Origin: Psychrosphaera aestuarii
Lineage (GTDB): Bacteria > Pseudomonadota > Gammaproteobacteria > Enterobacterales > Alteromonadaceae
NCBI RefSeq assembly: GCF_017948405.1
Contig: NZ_CP072844.1
Coordinates: 682,001 to 746,000 of the forward strand
Length of the DNA stretch: 64,000 nt
Reading direction: 5' to 3'
Of this stretch, positions 32,150-46,953 are shown one piece after another; position 1 is the stretch's first letter, and every line of letters begins with the position of its first letter. The notes below the pieces were generated by a model. That model worked only from the letters and a program-made list of their open reading frames with translations, had not been told where the DNA came from and ran no database searches. The position numbers and the translations under genes were made by a program.

Positions 32150-34465
32150 ATGGCAAATACAACAAAGTCGGGCGGCAAGTCGCCAAAAATAGAACCTACT
32201 CTAGATCAAACTAATTCAAACACTAGCCTGTCTGAGGATGCTGTTTTAGAGAGAGAGGACGCCATTGAAGCGGATGTAAAAACGCAAGTTGAAAGCAATG
32301 CTGTTGTTGCAAAATCACCAGGCGACTATAAGTATTTCACGGAAGATGACTTAAACAAAATTCTTCAAAACTTAGATGTATTGCGTGGCGACGTTTTACC
32401 TAAGCCGGTTGTGGCTGAAAACGCCGAGCCCGTTGAGACTAATTTCCCTTCTGTTTGTTTAATAGGGCTTGGTCGCTGTGGGTCTAACATTGCGTTAGAC
32501 GTGGCTACCTTGGTGCATAACGCTCGGGTATTTTACCTTAATGACTTTCACGATGCAGAAGACAAACACAAAGAAAAAAACCGCAAAGCACTTAACTGGA
32601 TACAGCGCAGTTTAAAAATTCAACCAGAAGAAGATTTACAGCCGGTATTTTTAATTGAGCCTCTGGTGATGTTGGGCGATTTAGATAAAGACATTCGTGG
32701 TCGAATTCAGTTTTCGGCTAAAAACGGTGGCATTAACTTTTTAAACGAATATACCAAATTAAAGATCATGGACTTGTCAGAAGTTCATGCAGGCGGTGCT
32801 GGTAACGCGCCAATTTTAGGCCAGTACTTAGCTAAAGTAATTTTAAATAAAGAAACGGAAAAATTTAGCAACGAAGACTGGAAGTTCATTCATTCTTACC
32901 TTATTGATTCTTGCGGTATTAAAGCCAACCAATCACGTTTGTACTTTTACATATTCAGTGCGGGAGGCGGTACCGGCTCGGGTATGGCATCTGAATTTGG
33001 ACTTGCGCAGCAATACTCTTACATGAGTAAAACCTTTGATATTCGTACCGAACAAGAAATGCAGGCGCACAACCAGTCCTTTGTATTTGAACCAATATTT
33101 ACCAGCGGTATTTGTATATTGCCTAACATTACTCATCGTACAGTTGAAATGTCGGAAGCCTTACACATCAATGCGGGGCGACTGTTATGTAAATACTTGT
33201 CGGAAGAGTGGAATTTTTCTTACAGCATGGATAATGACGGCAGTGACTCGGACAGCATTAAAAAGCGTATTCGTCCTTGGAATGCCATGATGTTGATCTC
33301 TAATGACATTATGCGTTACGCCGAAGAAACCGACGATTCAAATATTGGCGAAAATGACAATGGTCAGTTTATTGATGTCAACGCTATGGAGAAACATGCT
33401 AACCAATACATTAGTCAGCAAATATTTAATATCTTAACGGCACAAGCCGTGACTACGGATTACGATGAAAATTATTTTAGACGTGCCGGAATCGACATAG
33501 GCGAGACGATACGTTTAGACGCTAACGACTTATTTATGAGTCTGGCGGGACCTATTGCGGTGGCTTATGCGGAGTCGGTCGTGCGAGTGCGCGATTCCCA
33601 TGAAGGAAGAGTGGGCTTTTTTGATAAATCGAGTGAAGAGCTCGACATTGATGATTTGTTTTATCGCTCAATTGATTTACCGCACTTTAATAAACAGACT
33701 ACAGCAATCGAGGGTATTAGCCTGTTGCCTGTAGAGTCAGAGCGTTATAAAAGCTCACTTAAAAAGTATCGTGAAAGTGGTTATGATGCGAAACATTTAA
33801 AAGATTTACACTTCTTCAAAAACTGTTCGTCAGTGGTGTCCATTGTATCTTTACCGAAAGACTATAAATTGTCGTATATGGATTTGAACAAGCTGAAACT
33901 GCATCTAAATAGCTTGTTCCCGAATACCACGCTTAAACGCTTTGCATTGGTTATTGGTGCGTCGGCTAATTTGTCGTTAACTACGTTAGTAGCTAAAAGC
34001 CCGTGTTTAAGTGACGACTTCTTAACCCTCATTGTTTCGTACATTAAACGTTGTTTTGCAAAAGAAAACTTTGCCTTTGATGAAACCTTAGACAAAGCCA
34101 TAATCGAATTTATCACCGCGCCAGAGTTTGACGAAGCTAAGTTAGAAGGCATGTTAGAAGAGTTTGAAAATCCAGCTAAGATTCTAGATACCAACTGGTT
34201 TGCCATCAAACCTATGTACGAGAAAAAGTATCGTGAGCTCATTCACGACGAAAGTAAGTTCACTTCAATAAACGACATTCGACTCAGCATCACCAGTGTC
34301 AAACAGGCGATTTACTATTTACGTAAAATCTACCGCCACCGCATTGGCAAAACAAACGTTGTGTCGCTTAACAATGTGTCTATGTTTGATGCCGACCCCG
34401 CGCCAGAAAGCAGCGCTCAAGCTGAAAGCAGCGCACCAGCAGGAAAAGGTAAGTCGAAAAAGTAG
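32150..34465 (+). CDS. Large FtsZ/tubulin-superfamily GTPase-like protein, uncharacterised
   Basis: 771 residues. An acidic, disordered N-terminus (1-95) is followed by a Rossmann-like start CLIGLGRCGSNIALDV (103-118) and the tubulin/FtsZ signature loop SAGGGTGSG (270-278), the T4 phosphate-binding motif. Further on, RLDANDLFM (455-463) lines up with the FtsZ T7 loop that supplies the catalytic aspartates (here Asp457 and Asp460). The spacing between motifs is much larger than in FtsZ, so there are big insertions. The C-terminus is a Ser/Ala- and Lys-rich tail (from about 745). Assignment to the superfamily is from motifs only. The cell almost certainly has its own ftsZ elsewhere. The gene stands alone with its own ribosome site (AGGGAATG) and terminator, just outside the yicC island. 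A cytoskeletal or membrane-shaping role is plausible, not shown. Confidence 0.75.
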   Translation: MANTTKSGGKSPKIEPTLDQTNSNTSLSEDAVLEREDAIEADVKTQVESNAVVAKSPGDYKYFTEDDLNKILQNLDVLRGDVLPKPVVAENAEPVETNFPSVCLIGLGRCGSNIALDVATLVHNARVFYLNDFHDAEDKHKEKNRKALNWIQRSLKIQPEEDLQPVFLIEPLVMLGDLDKDIRGRIQFSAKNGGINFLNEYTKLKIMDLSEVHAGGAGNAPILGQYLAKVILNKETEKFSNEDWKFIHSYLIDSCGIKANQSRLYFYIFSAGGGTGSGMASEFGLAQQYSYMSKTFDIRTEQEMQAHNQSFVFEPIFTSGICILPNITHRTVEMSEALHINAGRLLCKYLSEEWNFSYSMDNDGSDSDSIKKRIRPWNAMMLISNDIMRYAEETDDSNIGENDNGQFIDVNAMEKHANQYISQQIFNILTAQAVTTDYDENYFRRAGIDIGETIRLDANDLFMSLAGPIAVAYAESVVRVRDSHEGRVGFFDKSSEELDIDDLFYRSIDLPHFNKQTTAIEGISLLPVESERYKSSLKKYRESGYDAKHLKDLHFFKNCSSVVSIVSLPKDYKLSYMDLNKLKLHLNSLFPNTTLKRFALVIGASANLSLTTLVAKSPCLSDDFLTLIVSYIKRCFAKENFAFDETLDKAIIEFITAPEFDEAKLEGMLEEFENPAKILDTNWFAIKPMYEKKYRELIHDESKFTSINDIRLSITSVKQAIYYLRKIYRHRIGKTNVVSLNNVSMFDADPAPESSAQAESSAPAGKGKSKK

Positions 34466-34662: not shown

Positions 34663-35526
34663 TTAGGAAACTTTAGGTACTTCTTTATTTGGTTCAAACT
34701 TATCAACGAGTTGTTTGGCTCGGGTTTTCAAGTCTTCCAGCTTTTTGAGTTTTCTAAATATTTGAAGCACCTCTTCAACAATGTCGAATGCAATTAATAA
34801 GTCCTCTTCTTCAACACCATTGGAGTGCGTGCCTTCATTCCCAATAAGCCTGATTGCATGTAGGAGTTTGGTTTCAATAGGATACTCCTCAGATAGTTCC
34901 TTTAATTGTCTTGCCAAACTATTAGGTTTTGCTTTAAGTTCCAAGCAGAATGCTTCAACAGCCTTCCTTAGTTTGTGAGCAGAACCGTTGGTATCAAAAT
35001 GAAAATAACTGAATGCATTGTATAACTCTGACTTTATTGAGCTGGGGACTTCTTTGTCTAAATGGATAATAGGAATAGGTATGGAGAAATAATCTACTTT
35101 GTAGATATCTGCCTTCTTTTTTTCATTTTCGTTTTTATTAATATGTTTCTGTTTTAGACCTGAACATGAAATGTTCCCATCACAAGCGTCACACACTAAA
35201 AATGCATTAAACAGTTCAAATTTAATTTCTGGTGCATTTAGCTCTTGAAGCCCGATGAAAATACCGCTGACTATCCCCAAAACTGGGCTTGTCTCATATA
35301 TTTCTTTTACATTATTATGCTTAGCCTCCTGAGCAACCCGTTTACGTTGTTGCTCTAATTTGTAATGTCGAGAAGCGAGCTTTTTATAATTTTCAGTTAA
35401 TGGCCTAGTTTGGATCGAACTTTTGTCAAAATTAAGAGAGACAGAGTTGCAGAGAGGGCAGGGTAGATCTGGGTAATTTTCTATCTCTACAAAACCAAGA
35501 ATTGACTTCCATGTACTGCGATTCAC
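34663..35526 (-). CDS. DUF4145-domain protein of the restriction island
   Basis: 287 residues. The start is GTG with GGA upstream (MNRSTWKSILGF). A zinc-ribbon-like CPLC motif sits near residue 21 and a second cysteine pair lies in CDACDG near residue 112. The C-terminal DUF4145 part is clear: SSIKSELYNAFSYFHFDTNG, then AHKLRKAVEAFCLEL and the conserved ending with IRLIGNEGTHSNGVEEEDL. DUF4145 proteins are common beside restriction-modification genes, function unknown. It is the outermost cargo gene, next to the left attachment site and 29 bases after the PD-(D/E)XK gene. Confidence 0.8.
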   Translation of the reverse strand: MNRSTWKSILGFVEIENYPDLPCPLCNSVSLNFDKSSIQTRPLTENYKKLASRHYKLEQQRKRVAQEAKHNNVKEIYETSPVLGIVSGIFIGLQELNAPEIKFELFNAFLVCDACDGNISCSGLKQKHINKNENEKKKADIYKVDYFSIPIPIIHLDKEVPSSIKSELYNAFSYFHFDTNGSAHKLRKAVEAFCLELKAKPNSLARQLKELSEEYPIETKLLHAIRLIGNEGTHSNGVEEEDLLIAFDIVEEVLQIFRKLKKLEDLKTRAKQLVDKFEPNKEVPKVS

Positions 35527-35555: not shown

Positions 35556-36578
35556 TTAATCTTTATGTAATTCAAAAGTAATTTGAGGGAAAGTCGTAGT
35601 CACCTTCTGTGCGAATTGAGCTGCACTTTCTTTTCCCCAATTTCGTGCAACGTAGTAATCTCGTCCGTTATAAGTAAGTTCAGGTTCACGTGATACACGG
35701 TATTTTCTGTATTTCTTATTTGTTTCAGTGACTTCAGATTCGAGTTTTATTAATTGAAAGGCACATGTAGTATCCTCTCTCAAAAACTTAAAGGCTTCGT
35801 CATCTATTAAGTTATTCTGACTTAGAGTTTTGACGGTACAATAACCTATATCAGCCTTCTTGATACGAGAGTGAACTACATCGCCGTTATAGCTGATAGA
35901 ATACAGGCTTCTGTCTTTTGTGCTTTCTCTTGATGCTCTCTCCTTTTGGCGTTTTTCACGGATCTTAACTTGGTAATCTTCAATTTCAGGAATAGGAATG
36001 ACTGATTGAATATCCAAGAGAATTTTACCATTACTTTCATATGGATGCATTCGTACACAGCGTATTGATAAGCCATAGTCATTTAACCACATGACCGTTG
36101 TTGTCAGCTCTCTAGAAAATTCAGCAGAGGCTAAAACGATTTTTACTTCCTGTGCAAATTCATCTTCGTCTTTTTCATCCCAGCCTAAAAATTCTAATAT
36201 CGATGATTCGGCATCTAAATCTATGTCATTTACTTTCAAGTAATCCGAATAGATATCAACTAAACGGTCAAACGTAAGTGTAGAAACCATTGCGGCATAA
36301 CGAACCGCTTGCAGTTCCATATGGCCGCCATCTTCTGTTCGCTTAAGTTCGATTACAACGATGTTTGCTTGTTTATCAATGCCTAGTAGATCGATACGTC
36401 TGCGACTTTCATCCCATTCGCCAAACTCTTCAGCAACAACTAAAGTGTCTGGCGAAATTATCTCAATTTGATGTTTTAGCAGACGTTGTAAATCTTCACG
36501 TTCTTTTAAACCTGATTCAGAGAAGGTGGTGCGTGAAATTGTTTTAATTTCGTTGTCTGTTACTTGGTAAATTGGCAT
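35556..36578 (-). CDS. PD-(D/E)XK nuclease-like protein
   Basis: 340 residues. The nuclease core is visible: Glu in VVAEEFGEW, RRIDLLGID (metal aspartate) and NIVVIELKR (the E-x-K pair), followed by HMELQAVRYAAMVS, as in the stand-alone nuclease-like proteins often annotated with DUF91- or DUF4268-type domains. The C-terminal part (YTISY-like to FELHKD) has beta-rich segments of unknown role. It lies on the same strand between hsdR and DUF4145, separated from hsdR by 327 bases, so it has its own promoter. A defence role is inferred from context. Confidence 0.78.
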   Translation of the reverse strand: MPIYQVTDNEIKTISRTTFSESGLKEREDLQRLLKHQIEIISPDTLVVAEEFGEWDESRRRIDLLGIDKQANIVVIELKRTEDGGHMELQAVRYAAMVSTLTFDRLVDIYSDYLKVNDIDLDAESSILEFLGWDEKDEDEFAQEVKIVLASAEFSRELTTTVMWLNDYGLSIRCVRMHPYESNGKILLDIQSVIPIPEIEDYQVKIREKRQKERASRESTKDRSLYSISYNGDVVHSRIKKADIGYCTVKTLSQNNLIDDEAFKFLREDTTCAFQLIKLESEVTETNKKYRKYRVSREPELTYNGRDYYVARNWGKESAAQFAQKVTTTFPQITFELHKD

Positions 36579-36905: not shown

Positions 36906-39900
36906 TTAACTGCTCCATGAATTAGATAGCAACTCTGCTTGTTTTAACACCAGGTCAACAGCTTCAGCGGCTTTGTCAGGTGGATATTTATAACGCTGCA
37001 ATGTACGGCGCACCAGTATTTTTAATTTAGCTCGAACGCTGTCACGAACCTGCCAGTCAACTGTGGTCGATTTTCTGAGTTTGTCAGTAATTTCGACAGC
37101 AATCTTTTTAAGGATCTCATCACCAAGTTCACGTACTGCACTTTCGTTGTTGGCTAGAGCATCATAAAACGCGATTTCATCTGGATTTAACCCCAGTTCA
37201 GCCTCGCGCATCATTTCTTCCTGAAACTCTTTGGCCATTTGAATAAGTTCTTCAATGACCTGAGCTGTTTCAATGGCGCGGTTATTGTACTTTCTAAGCG
37301 TTTCTTGCAAGCGGTCTGCGTATTTCTTCTCTTGCACAACGTTATTACGTGTTTTCGCTTTAATGTCATCCTTGAGTAATTTTTCAAGTAACTCAACGGC
37401 GAGGTTGCGCTCTGGCATCTGTCGCACGTCTTCTAAAAACTCATCCGATAGCAAACCAATATTGGGTTTATCCAAGCCACAAAGTGCGAACACGTCAGCA
37501 ACGCCCTCGGCAATCACGGCATTATCGAGAATCTGTTTCAGTGCCGAGTTCTTTTCTTCCTGAGTAAGCTTTTTATCAACGCTGGTAAATTTGCTGATAG
37601 CGGCCTTGATAGCAGAATAAAAGGCAATTTCTTTCCTTAATTCTTTTGCCTCATCCAAGGTACTACATAGTGAGTAAGATTTTGTTGCCGCCAACACTAA
37701 GTCTAAGAAACGCTTTTTACCATCCTCCAAGCCGAGCACATAGTTAGCGGCAGGCACCAAGAGTTTGTGCGCTTGTGATTCATAACCCGATATGTCCAAA
37801 CCATCGGATTTTGGCGTTTTACCGAACATGCCTCGGATAGCATCCATTTTTTCTAAAAGGATTGAAAACGCTTCCTCTGCATTGAGTGTTGGCTCGCCTT
37901 TACCTTTAGAGTCTGTATAGATTTTTAATGCTTGCTTAAGTTCATTGGCTATTCCGATGTAATCAACGATTAGACCGCCTGGCTTATTTTTGAATACGCG
38001 GTTAACCCGAGCAATGGCCTGCATTAAGTTATGGCCCTTCATCGGTTTATCCACGTACATAGTGTTACAACAAGGCGCATCAAACCCCGTTAACCACATG
38101 TCCCTAACAATGACGAGCTTCAGTGGGTCGTTAATATCCTTAAAGCGCTTCTCTAAGCGTTTTTTGGTTTTTTTGTTATAGATATGGGGTTGCAGCAATG
38201 GCTTGTCCGAAGCAGGCCCTGTCATAACAATCTTAATCGCCCCTTTTTCAGGATCATCCGAATGCCATTCAGGACGCAATGCAACAATTTCATTATAGAG
38301 ATGCGCACAGATATCACGGCTCATACCAACAATCATGGCCTTGCCATCCATAGTGGCATTGCGTGTCTCAAAGTGCTCGATCAAGTCAGCCGCAACTTGG
38401 CTTAATCTAGGAGTCGCGCCAACAAGCTTTTCAAGACGGCTCCATTCCCCTTTAGTTTTCTCACGGTTGCTGACGTCCTCTTCATCCTCGACCACTTCAT
38501 CCACTTGATCGGACAACTCAGCGATTTCGGCGTGGTTCAAATCAAGCTTTGCCAAGCGAGATTCATAATAAATCGGAACCGTGGCACCATCATCTACTGC
38601 ATCTTGAATGTCGTAGATGGACACATAGCCACCAAATACAGCGCGAGTGTCTTTGTCTTCTTGTGAAATGGGTGTACCAGTAAAACCAATAAAGGAAGCA
38701 GACGGTAGCGCATCGCGCATATGCTTGGCGTAACCAAACTTATATTGACCATCTGCACTTAAGGTGGCTTTCAGGCCATATTGGCTGCGGTGTGCTTCGT
38801 CTGAGATAACAACTATATTGTGACGATCATTGAGTATTGGATGATGCTTCTCGTCTTCAAGCAGGGCAAATTTTTGCACTGTGGTAAAAATGATACCGCC
38901 GGACTCTCTTTCAGCTAATAACTGTCTTAACGCATCTCGGTCAGAAGCTTGAACAGGTGTTTGCTTCAATAGCTCTACTGCGTTGCAGAAGGTGGCATAG
39001 AGCTGACCGTCTAAGTCATTGCGGTCAGTAACGACAATCAGGGTTGGGTTATTCATAGCCTTTTGCTGAAGCAACATACCGGCATAACAACACATTGAAA
39101 TACTTTTTCCGCTGCCTTGAGTATGCCAAACCACACCTGCTTTTTTACTACCAGGTACAACCTCATCACCATAGGTTGCCCGCTTCTCTGTTACGCCATC
39201 AATTTGCTGAGCAGCAATGACTGTCGCCTTTACCGCTTCTCGCACAGCATGAAACTGGTGATAACCCGCAATCTTTTTGATGATCGTCTCACCATCTGTT
39301 TCAAACAATACAAAAAATCGTATGTAATCCAGCAACAACTCGCGGTCAAAGAAACCGCGAACCATGGTTTCTAGTTGCCACTCCAGTAGCGGTTTGTCAT
39401 CTTCATTTTTAATGGTACGCCAAGGCATAAAACGCTCTTGGTTAGCAGTTAGAGAGCCTACCCGAGCGGTGTAACCATCACTGACAACTAACGCCTCATT
39501 GAAGATGAAAAGGTCTGAAACTTCATCTTTATAGGTTTGCAGCTGATTAAAGGCATCCCAAATATCGGCATTTTCATCGCTTGGGCTTTTCAGCTCAAGC
39601 ACAGCAATCGGTAAGCCGTTGATAAAACAAATGACATCAGGCCGACGTGGCTGTTTAGTGCCTGTAATGGTGAACTGATTGACAACTGAAAAGGTGTTGT
39701 TGTTTAGATTATCGAAATCAATGATAAAAGCATGGTCAGTTACTGGCTCGCCATCCTCTTTTTTGTATTCAACAGGCACACCCTCCAATAACAAGCGATG
39801 AAATGCGCGGTTATTGGTTATTAAATCCAAGCTTTCAGGCTTTAAAACAATCGCTTTAAACTGCTCGAAGCAATGTTCTATCTGCGCGGCAGGTAAGTGT

Positions 39901-40070
39901 TTATTAACCGTTTCAAATGCCGCTCTAAGTTGCTCATCCAATACCACTTGCGCGTAGTCATTACGCAGTGGGTTATCGCTATCTGGCGCAATATCAGGGC
40001 CATGCAAAACATCCCAACCACCTTCGTTGAACCAGTCTAAGCAGAGATTTTCTAGTTGTTCTTCGTTCAT
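36906..40070 (-). CDS. hsdR: Type I restriction endonuclease, R subunit
   Basis: 1054 residues. The N-terminal nuclease core has Asp145 (RRPDVICF) and Glu159-Leu-Lys161 (AVLELKSPS). The SF2 translocase follows: Walker A HTQGSGKS (316-323), DEAH at 424-427, FIGFTGTPI and the late motif LTGFDAP with QAIARVNR. The C-terminal helical tail (990-1045) carries [17 protein letters not shown] and YKYPPDKA, the part that in this enzyme class contacts the methylase core. It is translated last in hsdM-hsdS-FRG-hsdR and overlaps the FRG gene by four bases. Confidence 0.97.
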
Positions 40071-41308
40071 TGGTTACTCCCTCCACCAACAACTTCCAAA
40101 ATATTCTCGACGATGGTATCTCTCGCATTAACGGGGTAACCATATTTACGTAATAATACGCGGGTAGCATTTTTCATTTCGGCTTGCACCGTGTCGCGGG
40201 CTTGCCAATCGACAACCATCGACTTTGAAAGGTATTTATTTAGCTCATCGGCAATTAGCTGAACGCGACTCGGTTCTACCTTTTGGCTTTCTGGTGTGGA
40301 TTTTAGTAATTCGAGGATGGAACCAGCATTTTGGCTAAGAGGCAGTGCTGTTTGCTCTGGTAGGGCCGATGCTTCAGTCGCAGGCTCGCGGGCAGCCACA
40401 ACTTGCTTGCTCTGCAAGGCTTTATCACGCTCAACCTCTGCCATAAAGATATTGCAATAATCAGCCGCACCAATTAAATCAGGAAATAAGCTAGCATGGT
40501 GAACATTCATGCGCCTTAGGTGTTTTAAACACTCTTGTTGTTCTTCGTTTTTGATGTACACCTTGCAGATATATTTAGCGAGAATGCCCGCTTGCTCTCC
40601 CTCAGCCGCAGTTTTTAGTTCGTCATCTGGAAAATCGTCATTGGTTAACACTTCGGTTAACTTGTTTTCAATAGTGGCGTCATAAGGCGAAAAGGTAAAC
40701 AGCCCTGCTTGGCTCACCAAGCGCCCATGATCATCTTTTTTCGGCTCAAATACACGAATATCCGAGCAAAGTTCATCATCCGATATAAAACTTTTATTTA
40801 GGATATAAACGGCCCGATAAGGGTTGTCTTTTTCGTCTGTTTGATCTTCTTTGGCGAAAGCAAAAAACAAAGCTACATAAGGTGAGTAGGTCCAATCTAG
40901 CAATGGCGTCATCAAACCGTGATGCTGACCGATTGACCATAGTTCATCATGCTCACGCTCATTTTCATCATCGAGCAATGAGTGGTCTGCAATACGACCT
41001 CTAATGGCCTTACGGAACAAATCTAGCTGCTGTTTTGCAATCTCTTCTGTTACAATGCCATTATCGGTAACACGAGCTAACGTTGGTGTCATCTCCCAAT
41101 CAAAGCGACGGTGGCCACGAAAAATAGATTGCTGGTCAATACGATTAAAAAACGGGCTTTCCAGCAAAGAAGAAAAATCGCGCCAATGCTCTACACGAGT
41201 AACCGGAATTCGACCACTAACGTGATCAGCCGTAATTTCGAAACTTTGGCTTGGACTTTCACTATTCCATAGGGGGATTTTATCCCAATAAGAAGTTGAG
41301 GTTGTCAT
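40067..41308 (-). CDS. FRG-domain protein with an HsdR-like C-terminal tail
   Basis: 413 residues. The FRG domain spans about 15-230: [19 protein letters not shown] (61-79) and [20 protein letters not shown] (128-147) are its two signature blocks. FRG domains are found in defence and toxin contexts, activity unsettled. A low-complexity linker (about 305-345) leads to residues 352-407, which align with HsdR 990-1045 of the neighbouring gene with 22 of 56 residues identical by eye (VDWQ, RD, YP and others). The gene sits between hsdS and hsdR with four-base overlaps on both sides, so it is made with the complex. Docking on the methylase core in place of, or beside, HsdR is my inference. Confidence 0.88.
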
Positions 41309-42651
41309 GCAACAACCTCACTCGCTAAGTCTATTTCGCCGGAAAGTAATTTAGGGAGTAGCGCATCACGAAGAAGCTCTAGTTGTTTAGACTCACGCCT
41401 CAATGATTCGATCATCAAGTACTTAGTGGTAACTAATTCTGTATAGCTTTCTGCCAGTTTTTTTGATGGAAGAACAATGTCTTTAATAATGAACTCAGAC
41501 CAGTGACGTCGATACTCTTGGAACTCTTGCTTTCCTTGAATTGCGAAGTAGGTCCAAATAGTTGGCCGTACAGATCCTTTCAAAGGAATAACGTTCGAAG
41601 ATATATCGAAGCTTGAGCAAGATAAATGTGTTATACAAGTGTGATCACCAAAAATAAAAATAGGATCTTTGGGATTTGCTTCAAAGCCAGCATCATCATT
41701 GTGAAAACCAAGAAGAATACTAGCTCCTTGCTCATAGACAGGAGTCTTGCCATGAGGCTCAACCTGTTTCTTGCTGTATCGTTTATTTGGTTTTAATCTT
41801 TTAACTATGTCACCAATTCGAACTACATCCCACCCCTCTGGTATCCCACCAAGTTCAGAGTCTTGCATTGCCGCAGGAAATAGGGAAGCGGTTTGGGCAA
41901 GTTTGTTAAATGCCTCGAAATTGCTGGCTTTTAAACCGCTTAGCTCATCAAGTGTTTTGGCAGAAATAACACGCATGGCAGCGAGCTCTGCATCGTCAGC
42001 GCTACCACCCGCTGCCAAAGCTTCAATTTTGGCTTTGACCGGATCAAAATCGACAAACCAGCTTTTGAAGATTGCTTGAGCGATTTGTTCTAAGGTTTGG
42101 CTGGTTTGGGTGTTGTTTTTTTGCTTAGTATTTAGGTTAAAAGCCAAATCATTTATAACCCTTAAACTATCTTTATCTGGCCAGAAGATAACAGCATCTT
42201 CAATTTCTTTCGGATTAAATGCTGGGTAAGTACCACCATCTGCAACTCGGACAAGATGTTCGTTAAATAGTTCTGAAGTAATAACACTATACAAATACCA
42301 TTCTGTTCCTGTCGCAATCGCTGAAACTACAACAAAACCTGTTGAGGCTATCCAGTTTTCATGAACTTCATCCAAAAAAACATACTGTTTTAAATTTGGT
42401 CTAACAGTTGACATAATGAAGTCATTCTTTTTGACTATTCTCTTGGCTCTAGACGGAGCATCGGCATAAATCATATGTTTTGGAGGCTCGAACGAACCAT
42501 TAGAAACCGATGAGATATCGATATAATATATTTCGTCAGGAGCATCTTTTTTTCTGATGGTGTTTGCATTAACTGTTGCTACATCACTAATTTTTTTATA
42601 TCTCCATCCCTTTGGCAATGGCAAGTTATGCTCTCTAATATCAAAACTCAT
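41305..42651 (-). CDS. hsdS: Type I restriction-modification specificity subunit
   Basis: 448 residues with two target-recognition halves, each introduced by a typical start: PLPKGWRYKKISDVATV at the N-terminus and GGIPEGWDVVRIGDIV near residue 273. The central conserved helix region (TLEQIAQAIFKSWFVDFDPV) and the C-terminal one (KQLELLRDALLPKLLSGEI) are both present. It reads the DNA target for methylation and cutting. It overlaps hsdM by 11 bases and the FRG gene by four. Confidence 0.95.
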   Translation of the reverse strand: MSFDIREHNLPLPKGWRYKKISDVATVNANTIRKKDAPDEIYYIDISSVSNGSFEPPKHMIYADAPSRAKRIVKKNDFIMSTVRPNLKQYVFLDEVHENWIASTGFVVVSAIATGTEWYLYSVITSELFNEHLVRVADGGTYPAFNPKEIEDAVIFWPDKDSLRVINDLAFNLNTKQKNNTQTSQTLEQIAQAIFKSWFVDFDPVKAKIEALAAGGSADDAELAAMRVISAKTLDELSGLKASNFEAFNKLAQTASLFPAAMQDSELGGIPEGWDVVRIGDIVKRLKPNKRYSKKQVEPHGKTPVYEQGASILLGFHNDDAGFEANPKDPIFIFGDHTCITHLSCSSFDISSNVIPLKGSVRPTIWTYFAIQGKQEFQEYRRHWSEFIIKDIVLPSKKLAESYTELVTTKYLMIESLRRESKQLELLRDALLPKLLSGEIDLASEVVA

Positions 42652-44380
42652 AATTAATCCCTGCCAGATTTTCCTTAATTGCCTTTTCTAATCGGTCAGA
42701 CTCTTCAAACTGAGATTTTAATTGCGCGGTTAATCGCTGCATCTTCTCTGGGAAAGGCTCGCTATCTTCCTCAGCATCGGCTGCGCCCACATAGCGTCCT
42801 GGTGTTAGCACATAATCATGCTTTTTCATGTCTTGAAGTTTGGCGCTGAAGCAAAAACCTTTTTCGTCTTCATAGTCTGTACCAGCTTGCCAAGCATGAA
42901 ATGTATTCGCGATTCTTTTAATATCTGTTGGATCAAAATCGCGCAATACACGATCTTTCATAAAACCGAGGTTGCGGGCATCAATAAACAACGTTTCACC
43001 ACGGCGATCGCGCTTGCCTTTTTGACCTGGTGCCGTGCCACCTTTTTTGTTTTTGGTTAAAAACCAAATACAGGCGGGAATTTGCGTGTTGGTGAACAGT
43101 TGCCCTGGCAAGGCCACCATACATTCGACAAGATCTTCCTCAATCAATGCTTTACGAATTTCCCCTTCATTGTTGGTATTCGAGCTCATGGAACCATTAG
43201 CGAGTAATAAGCCCATTGATCCGTTATCGTTAAGGTGATGCAGCATGTGCTGTATCCAGCCGTAGTTGGCATTACCTTGCGGCGGAGTGCCATATTTCCA
43301 GCGGATATCCCCCTCTAATTTAGCATGCCACCAGTCTTTGATATTAAACGGTGGGTTAGCCATCACAAAATCAGCACGTAGGTCGGGATGTTGATCATCT
43401 AGGAAGGTATCGGCGTTCTTTTTACCAAAGTTAAAGTCGATACCGCGAATCGCCATATTCATGGCGGCTAACTTCCAAGTCGTCGGGTTACTTTCTTGAC
43501 CATAAACAGAAATATGCTTGCGCTGTTCAGCTGCGTTGTAATGTTTATCAGCGGCATGAGCTTCGATGAACTTATCATTGCTCACAAAGAAGCCACCGGC
43601 CCCCATTGCCGGATCATAGACTCGGCCTTGATATGGCTGTAGCATTTCAACGATCAAGGTTACGATACTTTTGGGGGTGTAATATTGACCACCTTGTTTG
43701 CCTTCGGCTAAAGCGAATTGCCCCAAGAAGTACTCATAGACATGGCCCAAAATGTCTTTGCTGTGCAGATCGAGCTTTTCGCCGTTGTGAACTGGGTTAT
43801 GAAATTGAGTCTTAGAAAACTCATTAATTAACGCGATTAAATTTTCATTTGATACTTCATAGCGTCCAACTCTCGGCAAAACACCTTTTAGCTTTGGGTT
43901 TGCCAGCTTGTCGTCAACTTTAAAGGTTTCGATTGCTTCTAAGGCATTGTCGATTAACTTGGATAGAGAAGTAAGCTTAAATGTTTCACCATGCTCTAAT
44001 TCAATGTCATCACCAATGGATCTTGCTGCGGTGCTTTTAAGAAACTCCCAGCGAGATTGTTTAGGCACCCAGAAAACGTTTTTTTCCTGATAATACTCAT
44101 GCAGCTCTAACTCTGCGTTTACTGCTTCGTTATATTCTTCTTCAGAGTCGTAATCTTCACGTGGCATAAAGTAGATGTTGTCGTCGCTATCATCTTTTGT
44201 GAACAACGTACGCAACTCTTGTTGGCGCTCTTCAAATGCGTCTGACACATACTTTAAAAAGATGATCCCTAGTACGACGTGTTTATAGTTAGCGGCATCA
44301 AGGTTATTGCGTAATTTGTCTGCTGCAGACCAGAGCTTTTGATCGAGTTCTTTTAAAAATTGCTGTTCTAAATTATTCAT
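42641..44380 (-). CDS. hsdM: Type I restriction-modification methylase subunit (N6-adenine)
   Basis: 579 residues. A helical HsdM N-terminal domain (about 8-170, from LWSAADKLRNNLDAANYKHV) is followed by the SAM-binding motif YDPAMGAGGFF (255-265) and the catalytic NPPF (342-345). The GQYYTPKSIV block before motif I is typical of type I methylases. It is the first gene of the operon and begins with ATG. The 452 bases upstream hold the promoter. Confidence 0.97.
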   Translation of the reverse strand: MNNLEQQFLKELDQKLWSAADKLRNNLDAANYKHVVLGIIFLKYVSDAFEERQQELRTLFTKDDSDDNIYFMPREDYDSEEEYNEAVNAELELHEYYQEKNVFWVPKQSRWEFLKSTAARSIGDDIELEHGETFKLTSLSKLIDNALEAIETFKVDDKLANPKLKGVLPRVGRYEVSNENLIALINEFSKTQFHNPVHNGEKLDLHSKDILGHVYEYFLGQFALAEGKQGGQYYTPKSIVTLIVEMLQPYQGRVYDPAMGAGGFFVSNDKFIEAHAADKHYNAAEQRKHISVYGQESNPTTWKLAAMNMAIRGIDFNFGKKNADTFLDDQHPDLRADFVMANPPFNIKDWWHAKLEGDIRWKYGTPPQGNANYGWIQHMLHHLNDNGSMGLLLANGSMSSNTNNEGEIRKALIEEDLVECMVALPGQLFTNTQIPACIWFLTKNKKGGTAPGQKGKRDRRGETLFIDARNLGFMKDRVLRDFDPTDIKRIANTFHAWQAGTDYEDEKGFCFSAKLQDMKKHDYVLTPGRYVGAADAEEDSEPFPEKMQRLTAQLKSQFEESDRLEKAIKENLAGINYEF

Positions 44381-45742: not shown

Positions 45743-46953
45743 TTAAACTATTATCGGTTCGATTACCGACGATAGTTTTTGTAGTGCTTTTTTTCTGTCT
45801 TCAAAGTAGTCATGTCTGTCATATACACCAGCAACTCCTTTAATCTTATGATAAAGGCAACGCTCCGCTATGTCGTTAGCAGTGCCTAATTCAGAAAGTA
45901 AACTGCGGAATGTGCGTCTAAAGTCATGTACCGTAAAATGTTTAATTCCAGCGTCACCAAGAAAGTTTGGATAATTGCTCTTTTTTGAATAGCTTTTGGG
46001 GCCAAATAATTTTGATAGAGCATGATTTATGGTGTCATCCGAAATATATTCTCTATTTTTACTTTTTCTTCTAGAAGGGAATAAGTAGCTTGAACCAGCA
46101 GATCGGACTTTAAGCTCTTTTAATAAGGTGATTACGAGCTCGGGTAGAGGAATTACATTCTCAGAACCTGTTTTGTCCTCTCTTCTTCTAGCTTCCAAAC
46201 CCCTTTCTCTAGGTCAAACTCTTCCCACTTTGCAGCTGTAAGTTCAGTTTTTCTTACCCCAGGACTAAGTAACAGTGATATTGCGAGGTAATTGTCCCTG
46301 ACAAACATATCTTGGTTTTGTCGAAAAATCTCGAAGACAGTTTTCAACTCAGAAAAAGAGAGGACTATTGCTCGACTTTTTTGTACTCCACCAGCATCGG
46401 CTGGCTTAAATGCAGTAGCAGGGTTGTTGTTAGCTAAATCCAATTTACAAGCATGGTTAAACAACTTTTTACAGCATAACAAGGTCTTATTTGCGATAGA
46501 AGGGCGGTTGCTTTTTGTCACCTTGTCTATTATTCCTTTTATGTCCCTTGCATTTACATGACTAATTGTTAGGTCACCAATAAGAGGCCGTATCTCTTTT
46601 TCATAGTACCGTTTTGTTATTTCGGGGTGTTTTAAGTTTCTAACTAAATATTTATACCAGTCGTCAACAGTTCGAATTTTAACGGAATCGGCTCTAGCCT
46701 TTTCAGCCAAGGGATCTACTCCCTCTCTAACTTTCTGAATCAATGATGACGATTTATGCTTTGCAGTTGCAAGACTCATTGCAGGATAGGAGCCACCTTC
46801 AATACGCATAAACTTTCTTTTGTTGTTGATACTATAACGAACTTCCCAATAGGCCTTCCCTATTGTTTGAACTCTGATGTAAAGGTTGTCCGCGACTGCT
46901 TTTCGCCCTTTCGTTTGATCTTTCAAAAAAGATTTTATTTGTTTATCGTTCAT
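45743..46953 (-). pseudogene. int: Tyrosine-recombinase integrase of the yicC island, frameshifted
   Basis: The first part (266 codons from 46953) has an Arm-DNA-binding/DUF4102-like N-terminus and the first catalytic arginine in SPGVRKTEL (Arg234), then drifts out of frame after LEEERTK. The second part (from about 46180 to 45743) has KTGSENVIPLP, the HDFRRTF box, the second histidine in CLYHKIKG and the nucleophile tyrosine in GVYDRHDYF. One extra base in the four-T run at 46171-46174 (plus strand) would restore ERTKTGSENV, a normal integrase sequence. All catalytic residues are otherwise present. A recent loss or a sequence error are both possible. Confidence 0.85.

Follow-up and report, generated by a model that had tools for sequence, protein, structure and literature searches.

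Why should a protein with an FRG domain, encoded in the middle of a type I restriction operon, end in the same way as the restriction subunit encoded next to it? The locus in question lies in 64,000 nucleotides of the Psychrosphaera aestuarii genome (contig NZ_CP072844.1, positions 682,001 to 746,000 of the forward strand), and this whole stretch is referred to here as the window. The order of genes on the minus strand is hsdM, hsdS, FRG gene and hsdR, and the FRG gene stands as a fourth gene beside the three of a type I restriction operon of HindI type (T1RH-like_C). Over its last ~75 residues, the FRG protein shares homology with the end of the adjacent HsdR. The FRG gene overlaps hsdS at 41305-41308 and hsdR at 40067-40070, by four bases each and with ATGA at both junctions, so the coordinates and overlaps given by a first-pass annotation of the letters alone were right. 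The operon and the parts of its products that matter here are as follows.

42641..44380, minus strand: hsdM, N6 DNA methylase subunit of 579 amino acids (aa) (PF02384 N6_Mtase, E=2.4e-108; HsdM_N, E=2e-17).
41305..42651, minus strand: hsdS, specificity subunit of 448 aa (PF01420 Methylase_S in two stretches, E=1.7e-8).
40067..41308, minus strand: FRG gene, 413 aa (PF08867, E=7.4e-24; PF11867, E=3.1e-14).
36906..40070, minus strand: hsdR, 1054 aa (HSDR_N nuclease, SWI2/SNF2 motor and T1RH-like_C by Pfam; TIGR00348, E=6e-186).
40433..41308, minus strand: FRG core, residues 1-292, a predicted ADP-ribosyltransferase (ART)-type effector (conserved signature residues; low ratio of nonsynonymous to synonymous substitution rates, dN/dS).
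40310..40432, minus strand: FRG linker, residues 293-333, evolving fast (dN/dS; low predicted local distance difference test, pLDDT).
40082..40309, minus strand: HsdR-type tail of the FRG protein, residues 334-409 (BLASTP, Pfam, profile-profile comparison, modelled helices).
36912..37145, minus strand: HsdR tail, residues 976-1053 (BLASTP, Pfam, modelled helices).

BLASTP aligns FRG residues 352-405 with HsdR residues 990-1043 at 22 of 54 identities (43.9 bits, E=2e-8 for the single comparison), bearing out an alignment that the first-pass annotation had drawn by eye (22 of 56 identical, FRG 352-407 against HsdR 990-1045). The likeness lies above chance because shuffled tails peak at 26.9 bits (1996 scored of 2000 made). 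Pfam places FRG (PF08867) at residues 60-158 with 84.9 bits against a curated cut-off of 25, and T1RH-like_C (PF11867), the curated C-terminal domain of HindI-like R subunits, at residues 334-405 with 53.5 bits against a curated cut-off of 26.8. The latter match covers only part of the profile (positions 249-321 of 329), and the isolated tail is still matched at E=3e-15. A profile of 15 FRG tails set against a profile of 15 HsdR tails, a comparison that the same annotation had proposed, is significant at 99.2% probability and E=2.7e-19; the alignments behind this and the other profile comparisons are hand-chosen subsets (A6 being 16 candidate FRG tails minus L029), and each profile E-value is for one comparison. 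The PADLOC models cross over as well, REase_I matching the FRG tail and PDC-S15 the HsdR C-terminus. The motifs noticed in the first pass, VDWQ-x-RD and Y-x-YP, are found again in either family. When 32 FRG and 32 HsdR tails (window and 31 loci) are aligned together, D34, R38, Y58 and P59 are invariant in both sets, W35 stands at 0.97 in the FRG and 1.00 in the HsdR set, and the position after R38 is D or E. What is not shared is the charge. The mean net charge is +0.4 for the FRG tails (range -6 to +5) vs +4.0 for the HsdR tails (2 to 7; 32 each), which makes it barely credible that the tail is a DNA-binding module taking the FRG enzyme to DNA. At E<=1, Pfam finds no HSDR_N nuclease, SNF2 motor, ABC NTPase or anticodon nuclease in the FRG protein.

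AlphaFold2 models of the FRG protein (48 FRG sequences, mean pLDDT 74.4, predicted template modelling score (pTM) 0.61) and of HsdR (a separate alignment of 34 HsdR sequences, mean pLDDT 75.1, pTM 0.52) show tails of three helices, at residues 346-363, 372-388 and 393-409 in the former and 976-1001, 1010-1026 and 1031-1053 in the latter. Shifted by the BLAST offset of 638, the two models agree at the end of helix 1, at both ends of helix 2 and at the start of helix 3, and the VDW motif of the FRG tail (W368) occupies the turn preceding helix 2. The pLDDT falls below 50 at FRG 308-326, between core and tail. In the core, the signature R64, G65, R79, Q128, H129, D138, R196 and Q200 is identical in 46 of 46 FRG rows of the tailed clade; the ART fold was not recovered for the core in the comparisons made here. 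Across the window and the three nearest loci (L002, L003 and L017; 6 pairs), dN/dS is 0.025-0.089 for the core, 0.187-0.541 for the linker and 0.064-0.118 for the tail (residues 334-413), ratios that are rough because dS is above 1 in several cases. Purifying selection is strong on core and tail and weaker on the linker; two conserved modules on a loose linker are what a tethered enzyme would be expected to look like.

The FRG-tail architecture is conserved and much wider than the window. PF08867 and PF11867 occur together in all 120 of the best 120 of 1622 homologues, among which a JGI protein name (P0005) already pairs both domains. P0113 (524 aa, 70% identical to the window FRG protein) also lists PF28043, source name KwaA, and P0155 (483 aa) lists PF04851 ResIII; these are either natural fusions or gene-calling errors. 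A Kosakonia gene with FRG and tail had no match in E. coli genomes by blastn. The plasmid search returned 33 records, two of them covering at least 80% of the query and both from Rhizobium johnstonii, one of which was examined, and the phage search six records with matches confined to residues 34-288. The viral-contig search gave one locus, L239, an IMG/VR contig classed as viral that holds M, S, FRG and R genes and whose FRG tail is without the VDW motif.

Linkage to hsd genes was counted over 161 loci, namely the 80 kept of 122 relatives from a one-genome-per-species scan with the tailed-FRG profile together with loci from whole-genome searches, some of which were picked for HsdR and not for FRG. 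The query skews this set towards tailed FRGs, and since the full-length FRG profile also caught HsdR via the tail, a core-only profile was used instead. The resulting 133 FRG open reading frames (ORFs) comprise 39 tailed ones that share their stretch with hsd genes, none tailed without them, 85 tail-less without and 9 tail-less with them; the 39 count the rear piece of the broken L038 gene, and among the 85 the split genes L045 and L062 are counted twice and some short contigs could hide hsd genes. M, S and R are on the same strand as the tailed FRG in 36 of the 39, the other three lying close to contig ends, and the tailed ORF overlaps hsdS by four bases in 24 of the 39. Among the nine tail-less ORFs with hsd genes, those of L037 and L039 are truncated at contig ends, another is the front piece of L038, and L221 repeats L163. 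A less biased set of 51 FRG matches in 398 genomes holds two tailed genes (window and L112), both in hsd operons, against 4 near hsd genes among the 49 others (Fisher p=15/1275=0.012 for the tail-hsd association); all 49 non-tailed loci were examined, and L206 gave no FRG ORF.

The tail as a general tag of operon genes is rejected, since none of 71 other ORFs lying between hsdM and hsdR carries it (the weak rows that come closest reach E=3.3 and 3.5 over 11-12 positions, and the overlap of L163 with L221 makes two of the 71 repeats). As far as this sample goes, the tail is therefore a property of the FRG clade and not of the slot. Over the 69 loci with HsdR, 32 FRG ORFs find the C-terminus of their own HsdR at E<=3.2e-4, and the tail part is matched by no other ORF below E=0.002. 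Across the 398 genomes the tail profile has 68 matches, 48 in ORFs of at least 900 aa, of which G159 was examined closely, and 20 in shorter ORFs, of which two are FRG genes and 15 match HsdR in a tally that leaves out G180, G080 and G073. Two of these 15, small mid-contig ORFs on the minus strand, match the HsdR tail only (L122, 7899-8201, 100 aa; L126, 7743-7997, 84 aa) and are either remnants or small tail-only proteins. By Pfam, twenty proteins embedded in such operons are of SIR2, TIR, Fic, RhuM-Fic, Abi_2, Abi_C, Schlafen-like, GmrSD, YhcG nuclease, AAA, DUF4268, DUF3800 and DUF6161 types, with two without a match. A SIR2 protein (L207, 6197-7366) and a TIR protein (L208, 6384-7490) sit between hsdS and a tailed hsdR and are themselves tail-less; they are predicted to be other NAD+-using effectors in the FRG slot.

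Distant relatives extend the comparison. On the R. johnstonii plasmid pRL11 (L238), annotated in the order methyltransferase, S, FRG and R, the FRG protein is 32% identical to that of the window by tblastn, and its tail is recognised both by the tail profile and, at E=4.8e-4, in a comparison with its own HsdR; a shorter search took another segment (E=0.79). The gamma-trained tail profile, run on the best 120 of 751 relatives of this protein, matches 30 at E<1e-4 and 67 at E<0.01. Distant FRG tail subsets (A8-A10, chosen from 26 tails, with P0183 from outside the printed sets) match the HsdR tail profile at E=8e-11 (11 sequences), 5e-6 (7) and 4e-7 (7, over 49 columns). Searches of 385, 40, 384 and 382 genomes led to six distinct places; five were taken in and G599, a partial match, was left out. 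Added to pRL11 and to L239 from the viral contig (51% identical), they form L238-L244, in all seven of which M, S, FRG and R follow in order on one strand, with ~1 kb separating FRG from hsdR in L239 and L243. The match of the tail to its own HsdR is clear in L240 (E=3.7e-11) and weak in L239 (E=0.005) and L242 (E=4e-4, with a long gap). Tails of L241, L243 and L244 gave no match to their own HsdR or to the tail profile, and L241 and L243 also miss PF11867. Conversely, the C-terminal part of the distant-FRG profile (325-415 and 347-415 of 426) matches ORFs of 1086 and 1064 aa at E=7e-6 and 2e-4, and these are HsdR (L245 and L246).

On another account, the FRG gene would be a defence gene embedded here but working independently, its tail a functionless relic of recombination with the hsdR end. 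The slot between hsdS and hsdR is indeed known for defence genes: DarTG2 also sits there (PMC12255303), TgvAB in the same slot protects without the hsd genes, at a level 10- to 100-fold lower against several phages (PMC11411939), and SIR2, TIR, Fic, Abi and other proteins occupy it in the present loci. The divergence of the L241-L244 tails beyond individual recognition would fit such a relic as well. Yet the tail evolves under a dN/dS of 0.064-0.118 vs 0.187-0.541 for the linker and is retained in L238 at 32% identity, and we therefore regard a functionless tail as highly unlikely.

In a FastTree tree of 126 FRG cores, the 46 rows labelled as tailed fall on one side of one branch (support 96, 1 change). 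The tree omits L001, L037, L038, L039, L158, L206, L221 and ORFs with a core match below 170 residues, and L238-L244 were labelled tailed by hand both here and in the signature count, L241-L244 on the profiles of their relatives. Since the tailed rows form one side of one branch, what the linkage counts record is a single old event that has been retained, not many events. With the tail confined to one clade among FRG proteins that otherwise lack it, we infer the direction of transfer to be from HsdR to FRG. FRG and HsdR have largely travelled together, their core distances correlating at r=0.917 over 39 loci.

The helical C-terminus of EcoR124I HsdR is proposed or believed to bind the methylase (PMC5248579, PMC2878639). 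We consider it probable that the tail mediates association of the FRG protein with the Hsd complex, and several results have to be set against this. The model of the window HsdR aligns to EcoR124I HsdR only up to ~residue 708, the EcoR124I C-terminus remains unaligned and the C-terminal families of the two differ; because the alignment ends there, the EcoR124I docking role is not carried over by the homology found here. The FRG proteins of L241-L244 occupy the same slot with tails too diverged for an individual match. Whole tail-less FRG genes, belonging to other FRG clades, lie near hsd genes at L046, where the gene follows an hsdR that has T1RH-like_C, at L163, where it lies ~650 bases before hsdM, and at L186, L188 and L192. 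In L186 and L188, which the Pfam scan of hsdR for T1RH-like_C covered, the FRG gene is ~10 bases from an hsdR whose product has no such match. Tail-less FRG genes in hsd operons, an observation that the first-pass annotation had named as speaking against its own reading, occur at these five loci but not within the tailed clade. Finally, tail distances of FRG and HsdR correlate (Mantel r=0.556), as core distances do, and locus-specific co-adaptation of the two tails is rejected, since in two tests the own HsdR tail was not the most similar one; only the L240 tail ranked its own HsdR first of 39, and the L241 tail ranked it last. The absent tuning may mean that the tails share a conserved surface needing none, or that they bind different sites. 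L186, L188 and L192 form a separate FRG clade with a variable insert, clustered with hsdR and extra genes.

The idea of a docked effector put forward in the first pass is consequently upheld in part. Homology, place in the operon (with the four-base overlap with hsdS in 24 of 39), selection on the tail and its absence from the 71 other ORFs speak for it; the role of the EcoR124I C-terminus could not be carried over, and the matching of paired tails failed. FRG has been placed in the ART superfamily as a possible NADase effector (PMC9503650), and the prrC gene is embedded in a type IC operon, its product being sequestered in the enzyme and freed on phage infection (PMC3874165, PMC12707154, PMC3506569). 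A predicted ADP-ribosyltransferase-type effector, tethered to the Hsd complex by an HsdR-type docking module as a PrrC-like guard, is a reading for which we see the case as evenly poised. The FRG product would consist of three modules: a predicted ART-superfamily core that is probably NAD+-using, a loose linker and the three-helix HsdR-type tail. The tail would place the protein on the HsdR-docking surface of the Hsd complex (M2S, or a second, weaker R site), and docking would keep the enzyme latent or position it at the complex. Once a phage blocks restriction, or something disturbs the complex, the enzyme could then provide a second defence, in the way that PrrC backs up EcoprrI. In this tethered-guard reading we infer docking, enzyme activity and trigger of the FRG protein alike. 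It is also possible, if somewhat doubtful, that in some type I systems one sequence-reading, methylation-sensing M2S core serves two R-site subunits, with HsdR cutting the invader and the same-tailed FRG protein providing an alternative NAD+-using suicide or signalling output, which might be switched on, for example, when a phage inhibitor displaces or blocks HsdR.

The same tail could make the FRG protein a regulator of restriction, competing for the second R site and setting the balance of R2 (cleavage-competent) vs R1 complexes with its core as a sensor. M2S takes up its two HsdR with widely differing affinity, and R1 complexes occur (PMC2878639, PMC5248579), and overlap of the FRG gene with hsdS fits a regulatory role. 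The signature residues kept in 46 of 46 tailed-clade rows go beyond the need of a pure competitor, and the regulator would be one that most such systems can do without (2 tailed FRG vs 48 tail matches in ORFs of at least 900 aa in the 398 genomes); we regard a regulator as unlikely. Slightly different is the proposal that the tail binds HsdR itself or an outside partner and not the HsdR site on M2S, the FRG protein riding the motor subunit. Homologous helical domains can pair, and the HsdR beside a tailed FRG is also tailed in the listed operons, L238-L244 included, with the sole exception of L031, where hsdR is split and the tail is on the second ORF. Inserts between FRG and hsdR, set beside the tight coupling to hsdS, point slightly to HsdS or HsdM, and binding to HsdR or an outside partner appears quite unlikely. 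Of these readings we favour the tethered effector.

Other genes surround the operon. Downstream of hsdR, at 35556-36578 on the minus strand, lies a 340-aa protein with a PADLOC PDC-S11 match (E=2e-126) and a weak NucS-type nuclease match, and at 34663-35526 (minus strand) a 287-aa DUF4145 protein (E=4e-15) with a weak PADLOC PD-T7-4 match (E=1e-5). A 771-aa protein at 32150-34465 on the plus strand contains the motif GGGTGSG, matches Tubulin_2 at a sub-threshold level (E=0.009) and is possibly a distant tubulin/FtsZ-like GTPase. A phage-type integrase at 45743-46953 (minus strand) is represented by two overlapping ORFs (46153-46953 and 45743-46198), a seemingly broken gene that may be the trace of an old integration site.

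Beyond PrrC, little seems to have been described of how embedded effectors are coupled to the restriction enzyme. A coupling hypothesis of 2012 holds that immunity components themselves restrain toxins, and that paper does not use the word FRG (PMC3506569). Our literature searches turned up no publication describing an HsdR tail on an FRG protein; a 2024 preprint on embedded defence by Payne and colleagues may list these genes. An effector that bears a recognisable piece of the R subunit turns the coupling hypothesis into a simple test on 75 residues. If the tethered reading is true, tails shared with R subunits would be a search key for effectors tied to restriction complexes.

How does the FRG protein compare with what is known? 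Its parts are already in databases, as PADLOC PDC-S15 and as the JGI name that pairs both domains. PDC-S15 covers PADLOC candidate FRG-type defence genes, with no mechanism stated in the output; its model PDLC04934 matches residues 3-408 of the window FRG protein over model positions 3-409 of 416 (E=1.3e-188, 625 bits), the tail included, whereas the 12 other matching PDC-S15 models are confined to residues 21-311. HindI-type HsdR (PF11867) has its last ~75 residues in common with the FRG protein, which lacks a nuclease or motor match and retains only positions 249-321 of the 329-position C-terminal domain. DarT is an ADP-ribosyltransferase. The DarTG2 genes occupy the same place in a type I operon as the FRG gene (PMC12255303), but DarTG2 is a toxin-antitoxin pair, and the FRG gene has no adjacent antitoxin gene, because hsdS and hsdR abut it on both sides. 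A further close parallel is PrrC of EcoprrI, with a predicted suicide or dormancy output in common. The prrC gene lies between hsdS and hsdR. Like the FRG gene, it is an effector gene embedded in an hsd operon (PMC3874165, PMC12707154, PMC3506569). PrrC joins an ABC NTPase domain to an anticodon nuclease (PMC3506569), families that the FRG protein, which carries the HsdR-type tail, does not match.
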